From: Lepidurus packardi
Lineage: Eukaryota; Arthropoda; Branchiopoda; Notostraca; Triopsidae
DNA length: 64,000 bases
Assembly (NCBI GenBank): GCA_023053545.1
Contig: JAKZAN010000163.1
Location: forward strand, 1 to 64,000
Direction: 5' to 3'
Shown: positions 563-64,000 of the stretch, in pieces
Layout of the letters: every line of letters begins with the position of its first letter
Numbering within the stretch: position 1 is the stretch's first letter
Notes under the pieces: model-generated
What the model saw: only the letters and a program-made list of their open reading frames with translations
Told to the model about the DNA's origin: nothing
Database searches by the model: none
Position numbers and translations under genes: made by a program

Positions 563-1487
563 ATGTCAGAAACAATCCCTCAAGTAGTGATCAACGTCGT
601 TGGCTGGATATACTTCATCGCATGGAGCCTCAGCTTCTATGGTCAGCTTGGACTTAATTTCAGCATGAAGAAGTAAAAATCCTATTGCATTCTAATTTTT
701 TATATTTCTCAGTGTTGAGGGCATGAACTTCGACTTCCTGGCTATGAACCTAACTGGCTTCACTTTCTACTCCATTTATTGCTCTTATGGGTATTTTAAT
801 CCCGCCGCTTAGGCTCAAACCGGAAAAGTAGATCTGAATGATTTGGTGTTCTCATATCATGCTGTGTTCATAACAATCCTAACTGTGACTCAGGCACTCA
901 TTTACCCAAAAGGAAAAAATCGTATTATGATTTGGACTATTCTCATGCTTATTGGAATGTGGTCCTTTTGTATGATCTATGGTACCCTTTCGCTAGGAAC
1001 AAAAACATTGTAGCCTTCACCTCGACTTGGAGTAGTGGCTTTTATGGGATACTTTAAATTAGCTATTTCATTCCTCAAATACCTGCCTCAGATGTATTGG
1101 AACTACAAGCGGAAATCAACTGTGGGTTGGAGTATCATGAATATTGTGCTTGATTTTACAGGTGGTTTCTTCTCATTCCTCCAGATGGCTTTATAGGCTA
1201 TCAATGGCTTAGATGTGCCGATTAACCCAGTCAAGCTCGTGTTGGCCATCATGTGTATGTTCTATGACCTTATCTTTATGTTCCAGCATTATTGCTTGTA
1301 CAGGACCAAACCAAATCAACCCTCCGCTATCCCTAATTAGTCTATTAGATAACCTCTAAATGGAGTTTCTACCCCCCTAAACCAGGCTGCATAGGATAAT
1401 GAAGAAGTCTCAAGCAGGAAACAGAGTAAAGAGGGAGAAATTGATGACTTAAATAAAGAAGAACGACAAAAGCTGACAACCCTTTGA
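563..1487 (+). CDS. CTNS: Cystinosin-type lysosomal cystine transporter (PQ-loop)
   Basis: A 294-residue multipass protein of the PQ-loop family; cystinosin exports cystine from lysosomes together with protons. One 40-nt GT-AG intron lies at 673-712, and the join gives the family block [14 protein letters not shown]. The second PQ loop ([19 protein letters not shown]) and the block [16 protein letters not shown] are close to human cystinosin. The last Q of that block is encoded by TAG, which supports the reassigned code. Compared with the animal protein (about 367 residues) the long glycosylated lumenal N-terminus is missing: the protein starts at the first membrane helix. The C-terminal tail is hydrophilic and Gln/Glu/Lys-rich. 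It is the first gene from the telomere. A related PQ-loop gene (SLC66A2) lies at 25.5 kb. Confidence 0.9.
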
Positions 1488-8453: not shown

Positions 8454-8716
8454 AGCCCTTGCTTCTTGTGGATGTGATATGCTTTTCAATCTAATAGATT
8501 AAATTCCAACCTGATACCATAAACATAGAATATTGCGAAACTGACACTCATTCCGGGAGTTGCCTACATTTTATATGAATTCGCCAGTCCTATTTCAAAC
8601 AACTAAATATTATTTTCATTCATCATCTGAGCATCATCAATTTTGTTATCCAAGCCATTGATTTCAAAACATACTCTTCCATACAAGACTGTCCATCAGC
8701 ACACTATTATCGAAAT

Positions 8717-8789
8717 GCCTTTGTAGCTCAGCTGGGAGAGCGTAAGACTGAAGATCTTAAGGTCCGTGGTTCGATCCCGCGCGGAGGCA
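8717..8789 (+). tRNA. tRNA-Phe (GAA)
   Basis: A 73-nt cloverleaf. The acceptor GCCTTTG pairs with CGGAGGC with two G-U pairs, the D arm AGCTCAGCTGGGAGAGC is canonical, and anticodon loop CTGAAGA gives GAA. The T loop is TTCGATC and the discriminator is A. No intron and no encoded CCA. A T5 run follows at once, the usual RNA polymerase III terminator. Confidence 0.95.
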
Positions 8790-8941
8790 ATTTTTATTCG
8801 ACTCACCAATAATATCAAGTACTCTGCCGTATCGAATTCTGACTATTTTTTATCAGGAAATTGATAAAGACTGGTTAATCTTATGTGGAAGAGTAGCAAT
8901 CGGCAGGCAGGTACGACTATGTATGAGCAAAATAATTAGAA

Positions 8942-8974: not shown

Positions 8975-9622
8975 ATGGGGAAAGGATCGTCTGAGAGCTC
9001 TCAGTCGCGAGAAAGATAGCAAAAGAAGAAGAATAAGAAAGATAAGAAGCTGAAGAAGGATAAAAAGGAGCAACATCATTCCTAACAAAACAAAAGCTCT
9101 CAACCCCAATAACTTATCCTTTCACAGCAATCTAGGACTTTGTCAAAACCATATCATCAAGCCACTGACCTTTATCTACCTCCTAAACTTTCGGAACTGA
9201 CAGAAAAGCCTTTCGTTCCACGCACCCACATTCCGTGTAGACGATGCCAAAAATAAACATTTTCGCTGAAGCTGAAACAATGCTCGGCTTGTGGATATCC
9301 AAAGTAATAACGACCTGCGAATTTTCCGCAGACTAAGGAGATTGATGTAATGGAAATGATACGGTCTGGGAAATTGGTGCATAACTCGTATGCACCAATA
9401 TTAATCGAAGTAGTGGTGAATGATCGAATGGGCAGGAAGAACAGAATAAAATGTAGCCCTGAAGACACTATAATGAACCTAAAAAAGCTTGTCGCTGCGC
9501 AGATTGGGACAAGAGCAGAAAAGATTAGGTTGCAAAAGAGCTCGGTGATTTATAAAGATCATTTGACTCTGGCTGATTACGAAATCAAGGATGGAATGGG
9601 GCTTTAAATGTATTATGATTGA
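8975..9622 (+). CDS. UBL5: Hub1/UBL5 ubiquitin-like protein with N-terminal eL37-like zinc ribbon
   Basis: A single intronless frame of 215 residues. The last 73 residues, from about position 143, are a full UBL5/Hub1 domain ([17 protein letters not shown] ... [17 protein letters not shown]) ending in the typical Tyr-Tyr plus one residue (MYYD). Hub1 modifies spliceosome function without C-terminal conjugation. The ordinary protein is only 73 residues. Here 142 residues precede it: a Lys/Gln-rich basic stretch (residues 1-60), then Cys88-x2-Cys91 and Cys103-x2-Cys106 in the context PCRRCQKQ...CSACGYPK. That spacing and the CGYP end match the zinc ribbon of ribosomal protein eL37. The rest of eL37 is absent. 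One codon near the end (TAA, Gln) lies inside the UBL domain. Start chosen as the first ATG; the frame is continuous. Confidence 0.88.
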
Positions 9623-15437: not shown

Positions 15438-16988
<1,551 letters not shown>

Positions 16989-43139: not shown

Positions 43140-45266
43140 TCACAGCCTTTGAAACTTCCTTAATACCTTCATTCCTGATTCAATTTTCTGGTTTCTAGTT
43201 TTCATTACTCCTTCTATAATACTATTCTGCTTTTATCTTTACACACCCTCGAAGTCCCTCACCTTTATCTCTGAGTAATCTCTTTTGCCCACACCTTTGG
43301 ATTTGGGTGTAACTCCCGAGCTACTTACCTGTAATGTAATAGCCCTACTCTTTGCAATGCTTGATAAAACTGCGGTGTCAGCTTTAACCCTGATAGAATG
43401 CTGATCGAGCATCCCATTGGTAGGCTAAGTGAGCTTAAAATATGTAAGGTATTCATCATCTGTGCTATCTAAGATGGTGAAAGGGTCGAAATTCTTGTCT
43501 TTGAATTTGTCGAGGTTTAGTATGGTTAGCTTCTCCGGCTATCTTTGAACAGGAATCAAGAAGTTTAGGCTCAGATCCTTTTTTTTCTTAGAGTTAATAT
43601 GAATTAGTTATATAGCCTTGTTACGAAGACCAACTTTATTTAGATAGCTAACTTCTTCCTTGAGGCGGGATATCAACTGCTGCTATTTTTATTGTTCCTT
43701 CAACTCTCTCCTTGCTTTAAGCTCGTCTTTAATCTCCCATTCAGTTTTGCCAGAATGTGGTACGATCTTGAACTCATACTTGGCGTGAGAAGCTTAGGCT
43801 TTAATGGACTTTGACTTGTCCAGTTTTTTTGCCTTGATGACTGTCTTCATTAGATTTTTGCGAATCTCTTCGTTATGAGTGTACAGAGTATTCATCAAAG
43901 AAAGAAACCTAGTATAGTCCAATTCACGTTGGTTAAGCGCGCTCTTCTTATAGAAATCGCGAAGTACTTCGCGAGGCAGGTCGACATGATAATCATTGCA
44001 AAAGCCAAAGAATTTTTCGAAACTCATCGTTCTGCTCTCATGGTCAATAGAATCGAATGTTGTAAATTTTGAGACTGCATATCTTCTCTTGCAGTATGTA
44101 AAGAAAATCTCCTCTAACTTAACCACAAACTCTGATTAGCTTTTTCCTTCCTGAGACTTCATTCCTTGTATTGTGGCCTGATTGCCTAGACCCTTCGCCT
44201 ACTGTTCTAAGATAGGCCATTGTGTTTTTTTACTCGTAAGAACTTTATACTGTTCATCGAAGGTCGAGAGTATGTCGAGGAGTGTCAGTCTTTCTTATTC
44301 GTTCTTTACCTTGCTCAACATTGATTCATATTTCAATATGGTAGACTTCAAACTTTGTAACAACTCATCCTTTATAGGGGATTCTGGTAAGACATCTTTC
44401 GTGCCTTTTGTGCTGTTGGAAATATCGACTCTGTTGTGCACAATTACTTCAGTAGCTGCTTCACATTTCATTTACTATACCATTTCTTCATATTGATGAT
44501 TTTCTTTCTACTATTGAGTTGCGTAAGTAGCGTTTGCTTGCTTTATGGCTCGCGTCAGACCTTTCGCTGTGAGCCTATAAAGGACACAAATTTATGGATC
44601 ATTCTTCATCCAGAACTCCACGAAATCCAATATTTAATCCTCTGCAAGGAACGCCCCTAAAATATTAAACTGTTCGGGTGTTATTTCTTTGACTCTGTTG
44701 TAATAGTCTTTGAGAAGCTAATGAAGAAGAGGAGCAATTCTCTGGTCTCCGAGACAACTAGATGTTTGGGATGGGTTTTGCAGAAAGGTGATGTGGTTGT
44801 GCGAAAACAACTCTCTAAAAAAGGGAACCAGGTTTGATGCAGGAAGAGTTCTATTATGTTCAGAGTCACTCAGAGAGTGATACGTATCTAGGGCGTGCTG
44901 AAAGTATTTTGGGTTATCGCGTAGGTATGCTCCAATATTTATCCGATTAGAAGCATATAAAGAACCACAGTCTTCTGACTATACCTTAAAGTTCTCAAGG
45001 ATGTAGCTATCCTCGAGAGCATCACTATGCTCTACAAAATACTCCAGCATACTGAACACTGACTAGAATGATAGAGGCTAGGAGACTTAAAGCGGATATT
45101 TTCCTGACTCCATGCAGAACTCAAGAAGAAGCGGTGAGAGTCCAGCGACGTTATTTAGATTCCTGAGGACAGAGCCGATAGATTACTTAGAAGGGGGAGT
45201 GGAGAATGCATTCCACCTGGCAAAGAGTTGCTATTTTTTTAGATAAAAAGGAGAAGCCTATGCCAT
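43140..45266 (-). CDS. Uncharacterised 708-residue protein with EF-hand-like region
   Basis: A single intronless frame of 709 codons. No family identified. Around residues 400-470 (SFEKFFGFCNDYHVDL ... LDYTRFLSLMNTLY) there are two helix-loop-helix units that resemble EF-hands without a canonical set of calcium ligands. Before it lie Gln-rich coiled-coil stretches (ATQQQKENHQYEEMVQQ); after it a basic/charged region (KDELKARRELKEQQKQQQ) and a Lys/Ser-rich tail. The overall shape (coiled coils with degenerate EF-hands) is frequent in ciliary proteins, but that is only an inference. Confidence 0.65.
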
Positions 45267-59644: not shown

Positions 59645-62600
59645 ATGAAGACTCTCTTCTTCCTGGCTCTTACTTCCTCCCTCTTCTCCATCCTCACCCC
59701 CCAGACACTTACCATTACGTTCCCAAATAACGCCTCTACTTCTCCCGATCGATTTGCCGCCGCATCGACAACCCTAACCGTCTCTGCCACTCTTAGTTCG
59801 CCCATCTCTGGCATTGTTTCTGCCACACTCACTTTTCCTGCCAACTTCACTGAAGCAGGCACCCCTTCTACCTCTTCTATTCCTAACCCCAACTGTATCA
59901 CAGTTCAACTAAATCAGTACGTATGCAATTTTTCTTCGAGCAGCATCAGTGGATTTGTGATGACAATCACTTCGGCCCGGAACCCACCCTATGCCGTGAG
60001 CTACGCCAACAGCAGCAGTATGGTAACTATGAGCTTCTCGAATGGTTTGGGCGTTTCCACAACTATCAACAGCGGAACAAATTCGGGCGCAAGGATATAC
60101 TCTAATCCCTCAATGAAGTGTTCGTTGGAGTTTACACCTAGTGTAAGCAGCACAGGTACATTAAAAATAGGGGTGGTGAACTCTCTTGCAATGAACCTCT
60201 CGTCATAGAAATAGTTTCGGCTGGCGTTCCCAGATAAATGGGATGGGTATTACTCGACAGGACTTATTCAAGGCTCCGATAATTCTGACATCACCACGAC
60301 CCTCGGGATTTCTGCATACAATGGATCGATCACTAGTTCTTCTTTGCTGACGATTTCACGTACCTTTACTTCGATGAGGAAGTCTCTGAGCATTGTCCTC
60401 CCCTCTTCGACAATCATCCCCGCCAACTCAACTATTTACTTTGTGATCGATAGAATCAATACTCCTACACTCGAAAACCCTAACTTCAACTTCTCCATGA
60501 CCACTAATCTGGTATCTTTTGGTTAGGTTGAATATACCTCTTCTTCAAATGTAGTCGTCTCTCCCCTTACACCCCTTTCTCTTACTGCCACCCTGACCAC
60601 TTCTGGAACCCAGGTCAACAAACCTTTCACGATGTAGTTTCAAATGGGTAACACACAAGGAGCTTTCATTGCACCTGCCGACATTGTACAGATTACATAT
60701 CCTACTCTAGTCGGCTTGCCTTCCTCAAGTATCTAGATGTCAATGGAATCGTCCGAGGTTTTGGTTAGTTTGATCGGAGGGAGCATTGCTTCTAGATCCC
60801 AGAATTTCTCAGTAACATATTTGGGGAATTCGAACACAGAGCCTACCCTTATCAACAAACAGTATAACATTACACTTTCGCCCAACTTCACGATGCCTAG
60901 AAATACTCAGACCCAAACAGTCATAATAAGCTTCTTCCGGCAGAACTCAAGGTACATGGTTTGTACAGTGCCTATTACTGCTAGTAATGGGCCTCTGACT
61001 GTGAACTCGATCGTGCCGACTGCAGCAACCGTTGCTGGGATCACAACCTATACCTTTAATATCAGCTGCACTAACGGGATAAGTACTTCAGGTGGATTAG
61101 TAGTAGTTTTTCCCGCAGAAATAGCAGTAGAGGGTGCCTGTTCGTTCAATCTTTCTTGGCCATTTAATTCTTCATCAGGGGCTTGTTCGGTGGTGACCTC
61201 AAACATTGTCAATATCTCGGGTGCTTTCAGCCAAGCAGTTTCCAGCGGAAGCACCTTATTGTTTAGCATTACTAATATTAGAAACCCTCTTTCGACAGCC
61301 TCCCTAGCCAACAATTTCACGATTTCAACTTACGATGACATTTCCTCCAATACTACTCTGGTTGATATGACTTCCAGGTTCTTTACCATCAATTTTAACA
61401 AAGCTCTGATTTCTACAATTTCCTTGGAGATTGCCAACAAGACCGTAGGGGCAGTTTCGTAATATAGCTTCCAATGGCTGAATCCTTCTCCATATGCAGC
61501 CGAAAGTATTATCACTATAACCTATCCTTCAGATGTGATGCTCTATAATTCCCCAATCACCTTCAGGAATGCTGGTACTTTTGCGTCGATTATATCTTCG
61601 AATGTCTCTACCAATAAAGTAGCCATTAAGCTTTTGGCCGATGTAGCTAATGCTAGTTCTCTGACAGCAACTATATCCTTCATAAACATGAATCGGACGG
61701 GCTTAGTATCTGGCTTCGCCGTTGAGACTTCAACTAAATCTGGTTTTCCCATTGATTACTCTACATTTCTCTCAGCTAATATCACAACTGCTTCTGCATT
61801 CTCCTCCCTCACGGCTGCACCTGAAACGACGAAAGGAACTTCAGATTTTGGGAATCTGGTGTTGAATCTAACAGCCTCGACCAGCCATCCGACGAACTCT
61901 GCTTTTGCTATAGAATTCGATGCATCTGAAGTGAACACCTCGAATGTTTCATGCACTGTTCTTGGAGGGTGCTTTATCTTGAGTAATCAAGGCTCTCTGG
62001 TTGTAATAATAACATCCTCGTCAGTTATCCAAGGAGCTAGCATTTCTGTCACTCTCTCAAATCTAAAGTATCCCCGTTCTCAGAAGCCAAGTTTAGTGAA
62101 GCTGACTTCGTTTACGAACAGCAGTCAGACAGCCTCAATCAATTCGTTGAGCACCAGCTTCACCGTAGCGAAGACTAAACTGCTTAATATCGCCTACAAT
62201 TCCCAATCCATGAACTACTATCGTTCTACTGACAAAATTCAACTCGTGCTCACTGTTACTAACCACCTAGCCACTTCAGATCTGATTTTTATCTATTTTA
62301 ATTCTTTCTATTCCTACTCCAGTGGTGGCAGCATATCATGCTAGGGTTCTTACTTGACATGTTTGTTTAATAACACTACCAGACTCCTCAGAGTCTCTAC
62401 CAGTACAGGCTATGTCAATACATCTACCATCGATATCGGCGTACTGGGCTTCACCACCGGCTCCCTGGTGGGCACACAGAGTACTCAACTAAACGGGCAG
62501 ATAGAAGCATACACAACTGAAAATAGTGGGGTTTATAGGATCGATGCTACTGCCTCTCCTCTGAATTTTAGTTTGACCTGCGGGGATAATATAATTTGTC

Positions 62601-64000
62601 GGACTTGTCTGGTGAACAACCATTCCCACTGCACAAGCTGCTACTCTGACAATACGATTACCTCTCTAATATACCTGGTCGACAGCAAAGACTGCACCAA
62701 TAACTGCACAAACGTCAATCAATTCTACTTTGCTTCAGGAAACATCTGTGACGCATGCCAAGCACCTTGCTCTACCTGCACAAATAAATATGTCTGTAAC
62801 ACTTGCCTCAGCACCTTTCCATACCTCTATCAAAACACTACCAATTCCACATGCAACTCTACGTGCATCTTGGGATACTATGAGGCTACAGTCAATGGCA
62901 TTCTCCTGTGTCGACCGTGCGCAGCTTCATGCGCTACGTGCAATGCAACAGCTATCTTTTGCCTAACCTGTACGGTAACCTCTGAGTTCGTACAAAATGG
63001 CTCTTGTGTGGTTTCCTGTAGCCTCGGATTCTACCCGTCAAGCACTTTGTGCAAGACATGTGACCCAAGTTGCAGGACTTGTCAGAATGCGACTGCCTGC
63101 ACTTCATGCCTGTCTGGATATGTGGAGTTACCGTCTCAGCTTTGCGGAAATAGCTGCCCTTCAGGGACTGCTATTAATTTGAGCACGAACAAATGTGGGT
63201 GTATGCCTCCTTGTGCGACTTGTTCCGGTACTCAGAGCAATTGTTTGTCCTGTTTAGCTGATAGTCTTTATGGAAACACTTGCGTGCCGTCATGTCCGAG
63301 CGGTACAGTTACCGCCAACAACATTTGTGTTAGTTGTGCTATGAACTGTTTAGTCTGTACCTTAACAGCATGCGTCTCCTGCCTAAGCAATACATATCTC
63401 TATGATGGCAAATGCTTTTCGGACTGCAACTCCATTGGCCCAGAGTACGACAGAAATATAGCTACGGGCACCTGCATTAAATGCCCCACTGGCTGTGATA
63501 GTTGCAACCCCATTACGCAAACCAACTGCTCGTCATGCATCAGTAACTATGTCCTTGATACTAGTACGAGCCTGTGCGTGGAAAGATGCGTGGCCCTCGG
63601 AAACTGCTCTGCGCCTGTTATTTGCACCACAGGTTTTGTACTTAACGGCAACGCGTGCGTGCCCGAAGAGCCCAGCGCAAATGGCAAAGCATCGATTATT
63701 ATTTAAATTGTTGCTCTTGGGAGTTTAGTCACGATAGGGCTTCTATCGAAACTCTTGGTCAAAATAACTTTTTTGCCTTACTCGATCATGTCGATGGTGT
63801 GTGTTTTGGAATGGTGTGGCTGCCTAATCGTAGTGGGACTGGGTGGAGAATACATGGGGAAAAATCGGTTGCTTGCCTAAAGTTACGATCTTCGGAGTAG
63901 CGGCGTGATATGCGTATTGGTGGGAATCGTGCTGAACTATGTTCTGAACGGGTTCCACATCCTGGCTTACCTTAAATATATTTCGGCGGACCCCTACTTT
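59645..64000 (+). CDS. Giant secreted/membrane protein with Cys-rich furin-like region (partial)
   Basis: A frame open from the ATG to the window edge: at least 1452 codons, 3' end outside. It has a signal peptide (MKTLFFLALTSSLFSIL). The first 900 residues are Ser/Thr/Asn-rich with repeated beta-sandwich-like units (each with a pattern such as ITFPNNAS or VVVFPAEIAVEGAC) and many N-glycosylation sites. From about residue 980 comes a cysteine-rich region of CxxC and CxxCxxxxxx repeats of the furin/growth-factor-receptor type (for example CDPSCRTCQNATACTSC). After that the frame becomes hydrophobic, with several membrane helices (SIIIQIVALGSLVTIGLL). This layout is common in large ciliate surface proteins. 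No enzyme motif recognised. Confidence 0.8.

Follow-up and report, generated by a model that had tools for sequence, protein, structure and literature searches.

A gene of 215 codons followed by a TGA stop lies on the forward strand of the window, the 64,000-base stretch analysed here (bases 1–64000 of contig C152, which has 71,775 bases). Its sequence supports an arrangement in which Hub1/UBL5 is joined in frame to an eL37-type zinc ribbon. The features on which the analysis draws are as follows.

1–224, no strand assigned: left-hand telomere of C152, made of C4A2 repeats and read directly from the sequence; the right end likewise carries such repeats
8716–8790, forward strand: tRNA-Phe (gaa) gene, adjoining the 5′ side and bounding the 5′ reach of the gene
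8975–9622, forward strand: whole gene, 215 codons and TGA, comprising a Lys-rich N-terminal region, the eL37-type zinc ribbon, a linker and the Hub1/UBL5 domain
9017–9073, forward strand: Lys-rich low-complexity stretch, residues 15–33 (translated with the Glu code), without a Pfam family match
9221–9310, forward strand: eL37-like zinc ribbon, residues 83–112, with Cys88/91/103/106 and then GYP (Pfam PF01907, E = 1.7e-9; PDB eL37, E = 1.1e-6)
9311–9400, forward strand: linker, residues 113–142, without TGA and with two in-frame ATG codons (9350 and 9356)
9401–9619, forward strand: Hub1/UBL5 domain, residues 143–215, with C-terminal YYD; Asp164 corresponds to human Asp22

The frame is open when TGA is read as stop and TAA and TAG as sense, and contains seven in-frame TAA/TAG codons (residues 15, 37, 46, 94, 111, 112 and 211). 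The ATG at 8975 is the sole in-frame ATG 5′ of the ribbon, with an upstream in-frame stop (TGA) at 8924, and the first TGA downstream in the ribbon frame is met only at the end of Hub1. Cys88, Cys91, Cys103 and Cys106 fall at window positions 9236, 9245, 9281 and 9290, directly followed by GYP, and about 30 residues separate the ribbon from a full Hub1/UBL5 domain. A sequence-only reading of this DNA had described a single open frame running from these four cysteines and GYP into a whole UBL5 domain, a description borne out by the frame itself and by the Pfam and PDB matches. Judged by those matches, which lie far beyond chance, the two halves are an eL37-type ribbon and UBL5/Hub1. The linker also contains, just 5′ of the Hub1 domain, a perfect 7-bp inverted repeat (GTGCATA-ACTCG-TATGCAC, 9377–9395), seen by eye, which could be due to chance.

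Source of the contig and genetic code

With C4A2 repeats at both of its ends, C152 has the appearance of an entire macronuclear chromosome of a ciliate. It carries long unbroken open reading frames (including ones of 1449, 1048, 827 and 516 amino acids), which suggests that it contains few frameshift errors. The assembly to which it belongs is, from the genes that it contains, a mixture of ciliate, another eukaryote and bacteria. Genes of the other eukaryote, probably an animal, were found on C1 (14.0 Mb), C2 (13.5 Mb) and C5 (matches up to 9.7 Mb), and bacteria appear to be present too, judging by open frames on C43 (L053) and C95 (L055) that we take to be FtsZ-like. These two frames were among 23 matches to the tubulin family, which on small contigs otherwise comprised one divergent tubulin on C321 (L059, C321:32129–32770), a very divergent ciliate protein with a long acidic tail whose best PDB match is β-tubulin (E = 8.2e-44). 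Prp8 was detected on C5 only, indicating that the ciliate part of the assembly is incomplete.

Several other ubiquitin-related genes were noted. In the ubiquitin–eL40 gene (L035, C240, at about 54,640), an apparent frame shift occurs right after MQIFVKT and there is a 52-nt intron, features that reflect either consensus errors or an odd gene; the polyubiquitin gene (L028/L029, C229, 43,100–44,700) has frameshifted repeats beside intact ones, perhaps an assembly error in the repeats. Because both look frameshifted, consensus errors may occur in the assembly. L031 (C151:45250–45462) and L036 (C289:52097–52306) encode similar ciliate proteins with a von Willebrand A domain and an internal ubiquitin domain, as assigned by Pfam for L031 and by eye only for L036.

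In-frame TAA and TAG most likely encode Glu and not the usual ciliate Gln, a peritrich-type code (NCBI table 30). As Pfam bit scores were mixed, this call relied on conserved positions in a kinase on C152 and the tubulin on C321, which are assumed to come from one ciliate. The MAP kinase gene (15438–16988, reverse strand; best PDB match 6v6a, E = 7.1e-133) has 11 in-frame TAA/TAG codons. When compared with 6v6a by eye, five fall on Glu (codons 60, 146, 206 and 224, and TAG at 308), two on Asp (codons 92 and 321), one on Ala (codon 247) and none on Gln, with codons 163, 165 and 479 unclear or unaligned; codon 60 is the catalytic αC Glu. In the C321 tubulin, the TAA at codon 3 corresponds to tubulin Glu3 and several more TAA codons lie in the acidic tail. 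The assignment of TAG rests on few positions. Taking the best family of each protein, and for L031 its VWA_3 domain as well, Pfam scores favoured Glu for the Pkinase domain (+8.1 bits, the largest difference), SAPS (+1.5), the ubiquitin domain of L043 (+1.0) and NIF (+0.5), and Gln for Vps18 (2.7), the VWA_3 (1.5) and ubiquitin (0.8) domains of L031, PQ-loop (0.4) and the eL37 match in the window (0.4); the ubiquitin match of the fusion gene scored the same under both codes. Two further open reading frames in the window (43143–45266, reverse strand; 59645–63997, forward strand) matched no Pfam family under either code. In the available part of PMC10553269, UAR is given as Glu in Peritrichia, with one other oligohymenophorean using UAG for Glu and UAA for Lys.

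The Hub1/UBL5 domain

By sequence, the C-terminal domain groups with Hub1, and the 142 residues that precede it make the protein a variant by architecture. Pfam places a ubiquitin domain at residues 153–212 (E = 1.8e-7; 31.2 bits against a cut-off of 25.4). In a phmmer search of the PDB, UBL5 entries lead, aligning from residue 140 or 143 to 214 with E values of 4.5e-24 to 1.2e-23 (87–88.5 bits); polyubiquitin chains reach 4.6e-20, with no single stretch passing alone, and stop near residue 207. The domain is identical to human UBL5 at 45 of 73 residues and ends in MYYD, that is, the tyrosine pair and one further residue, without Gly-Gly. With codon 211 read as Glu, this end becomes GMGLEMYYD, compared with human GMNLELYYQ.

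A second surface of Hub1 binds Prp5; human W39, W47, Y48 and H63 are all changed in the fused Hub1. As far as the available text of PMC4141198 goes, nine human Hub1 positions are named in the interface with the HIND helix. Asp22, which forms the salt bridge with HIND, is kept as Asp164. Six of the nine are identical here (17, 18, 22, 29, 30 and 33), two are conservatively replaced (M1 by L143 and V16 by I158) and one is changed (N19 to S161), a comparison in which Lys was used at positions 17 and 29, where that text prints L17 and L29 and the human sequence has Lys.

A Hub1 search of the assembly gave 12 matches at E ≤ 10, comprising two Hub1 genes (the fusion and an intron-bearing gene on C2), one fragment beside the C2 gene and nine weak ubiquitin-like matches (16–18 bits). 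As the ciliate part of the assembly is incomplete, the recovery of a single ciliate Hub1 does not imply that it is the only one in the cell.

The eL37-type zinc ribbon

The Pfam family Ribosomal_L37e matches residues 83–112 with 38 bits (cut-off 27.6; 37.6 bits with the Glu code), spanning profile positions 13–42 of 53. When the ribbon and its flanks (50 amino acids) were searched against the PDB, the best 60 of 71 matches at E ≤ 10 were all eL37. The loose pattern C..C.{8,14}C..CG occurs once in the six frames of the window, at the ribbon. Given the strength of the Pfam and PDB matches, a chance motif was rejected as a reading of the ribbon.

The assembly also encodes a canonical, full-length eL37, on C262, a contig with C4A2 repeats at its ends. 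Such a gene had been proposed as a sign that the fusion is not the only source of this domain, and its presence led us to reject the fused gene as the sole eL37 of the cell. In the 27 residues compared, the ribbon is identical to the C262 protein at 12, keeping all four cysteines, TH..CRRC and CGYP. Alignment with the eL37 proteins of C262 and C2 shows that the fused ribbon lacks both the N-terminal GTxxFGxRH segment and the C-terminal basic tail, which in eL37 are main rRNA contacts. With these tails absent and a canonical eL37 encoded on C262, the ribbon is more likely reused than ribosomal.

One protein or two

In our judgement, the gene very probably encodes a real fusion protein, a single chain. 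The competing view, to which we give distinctly less weight, is that the ribbon and Hub1 are separated by a hidden intron, an assembly indel or a start codon in the linker, and that Hub1 is made bare or short-tailed from the ATG at 9350. The in-frame ATG codons at 9350 and 9356 could indeed start a shorter Hub1, whereas the ribbon frame stays open to the end of Hub1 and offers only the ATG at 8975 from which to begin. The open linker in itself proves little, because TGA-free stretches of 30 codons are common, occurring at 57% of random places.

A 28-nt intron candidate, GTAATA...TTTTCCGCAG (GTAATA...CAG), begins at 9304; its length would shift the frame, and by eye the ribbon read beyond it soon meets TGA. 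Against its use, splicing would split the gene in two. The homology-supported introns, moreover, are longer, at 40 nt (in a cystinosin-like gene) and 52 nt (in the eL40 gene), and have TTCTAAT and TTTTAAC, respectively, before the 3′ site, whereas the candidate has no such motif; this calibration is thin, consisting of two introns whose ends and sizes were judged by eye. A count of intron motifs gave 116 candidates, fewer than in shuffled sequences (167–202), and was of no use as a calibration. The cystinosin-like gene is a PQ-loop gene in the window (563–1487, forward strand), with its intron starting at 673 as judged by eye.

The apparent indel damage in the eL40 and polyubiquitin genes of the assembly would also suit a broken frame, as would weak codon bias through the middle of the open frame, across much of residues 31–120. 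Of 13 blocks, those starting at residues 31, 76 and 91 (scores of −5.1, −3.7 and −5.4) fell under −3.5, the 5th percentile for held-out coding blocks; at residues 36–60 the other two forward frames scored 4.3 and 3.4, compared with −2.6 in the gene frame. Blocks from residue 121 onwards scored 1.0 to 4.7, supporting the UBL half. Two single-sequence AlphaFold runs, without an alignment, gave models too poor to serve in a fold search (mean pLDDT of 45.1 and 40.5).

Proposed function

We somewhat favour the view that the gene encodes the spliceosomal Hub1 of a peritrich-type ciliate, made as one chain with an N-terminal ribbon and a Lys-rich head that probably add an RNA or protein contact. The single-frame plan is read directly from the DNA; its expression we infer. 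The kept residues suggest that, like other Hub1 proteins, the UBL half most likely makes a non-covalent contact with a HIND helix in the U4/U6.U5 tri-snRNP, on Snu66 or Prp38. With the HIND-binding face largely kept and Gly-Gly absent, the UBL half should work like Hub1, and with the domain at the C terminus and again without Gly-Gly, the ribbon should not be cut off. Human Met1 forms part of the HIND-binding face and the chain here extends upstream from that very point, so that the ribbon would hang on its linker of about 30 residues beside the HIND contact. There it would probably add a contact to RNA or protein, perhaps with help from the basic tail.

In the accessible portion of PMC8431670, Hub1 is described as a non-covalent clip on the tri-snRNP, and that of PMC9505925 lists Hub1 and Prp38 in Stentor, with Snu66 not found. 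All matches to Snu66/SART-1, Prp38 and HIND that we obtained in this mixed and partial assembly fell on two large contigs, C1 and C5, with none on small contigs.

The sequence-only reading had left the choice between a translation- or spliceosome-linked fusion and an adaptor that provides Hub1 with an RNA-binding head. Retention of most of the HIND-binding face strengthens the spliceosomal side of that proposal and the ribosomal side now appears weak. On the latter, some large subunits would have the ribbon in place of eL37, which would connect translation with splicing or with stress control. The nearest relatives of the ribbon are indeed eL37 proteins, with TH..CRRC and CGYP kept, but the full-length eL37 on C262 and the missing rRNA-contacting segment and tail make a ribosome-bound Hub1 improbable.

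A neutral or lineage-private accretion, in which a fragment of eL37 was copied upstream of Hub1 and serves as a folded cap or stabilizer without a specific target, shares its anatomy with the spliceosomal reading and differs in function. The divergence of the ribbon from the C262 eL37 is in keeping with this history, as is the failure of searches in viral, bacterial and archaeal collections to turn up a relative that carries the fusion. A whole-protein search of viral contigs gave 23 pattern matches, and a three-row UBL alignment gave 157 in viral contigs and 97 in GTDB genomes, with none confirmed in any of the three. Because these collections are viral, bacterial and archaeal, such absence says little about relatives, and conservation of the four cysteines, TH, CRRC and GYP suggests selection on the fold; we therefore regard accretion as the less probable account, although one that carries some weight.

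The spliceosomal reading could be taken further. In peritrichs or ciliates more widely, Hub1 might be obligately joined to an eL37 ribbon that was captured and now binds RNA at the tri-snRNP, an arrangement that might even couple splicing to ribosomal protein supply. We put this forward as a speculation that is unlikely to hold in full; if true, these ciliates would have in Hub1 a built-in RNA-binding subunit. Hub1, a ubiquitin-fold protein of high conservation, is mostly described as a bare domain. A version that permanently carries an additional domain would be a natural experiment on the contacts of Hub1 in the spliceosome, and on the reuse of ribosomal zinc ribbons away from the ribosome.

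Comparison with known systems

Elsewhere, Hub1 is normally a stand-alone domain of about 73 residues. With Hub1/UBL5 structures (PDB 1uh6, 4pyu, 1p0r and 6ahd; yeast 1m94 and 3plu) the fusion shares the whole 73-residue domain, Asp22, the C-terminal tyrosine pair and the absence of Gly-Gly, and it differs from them in 142 extra N-terminal residues that include a zinc ribbon. A text search of the Hub1 review PMC8431670 met no mention of fusion, zinc, ribosom or N-terminal, and no report of a Hub1–zinc ribbon fusion was found among the papers listed by full-text searches of open-licence PMC, in agreement with the earlier impression that a Hub1 joined to a ribosome-type zinc ribbon had not been known. 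Lineage-private ubiquitin fusions do arise, as described for algae (PMC6332867, in the portion available).

With eL37 (Pfam PF01907; PDB 9l94, 4v8m and others) the common element is CxxC-x11-CxxCGYP with TH..CRRC. Where eL37 has its GTxxFGxRH segment and basic tail, the fusion has neither, and its ribbon runs on into Hub1.

Ubiquitin–eS31 and ubiquitin–eL40, the latter also present in this assembly on C240, likewise combine a ubiquitin-fold domain and a ribosomal protein in one frame, and the sequence-only reading had invoked them as precedents. Those classic precursors start with ubiquitin, which is released by cleavage behind its Gly-Gly, whereas here Hub1 comes last and ends in YYD, leaving no Gly-Gly to cleave; the likeness proved superficial. 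It is this general resemblance, of a ubiquitin-fold domain with a ribosomal zinc ribbon, that might suggest a cleavable precursor releasing free Hub1 and free ribbon, but cleavage of the kind made by deubiquitinases would leave the ribbon attached, and we rejected such a precursor as highly improbable on account of the reversed order and the absence of Gly-Gly. With its opposite order, the fusion shares no cleavage logic with the classic ubiquitin fusions.
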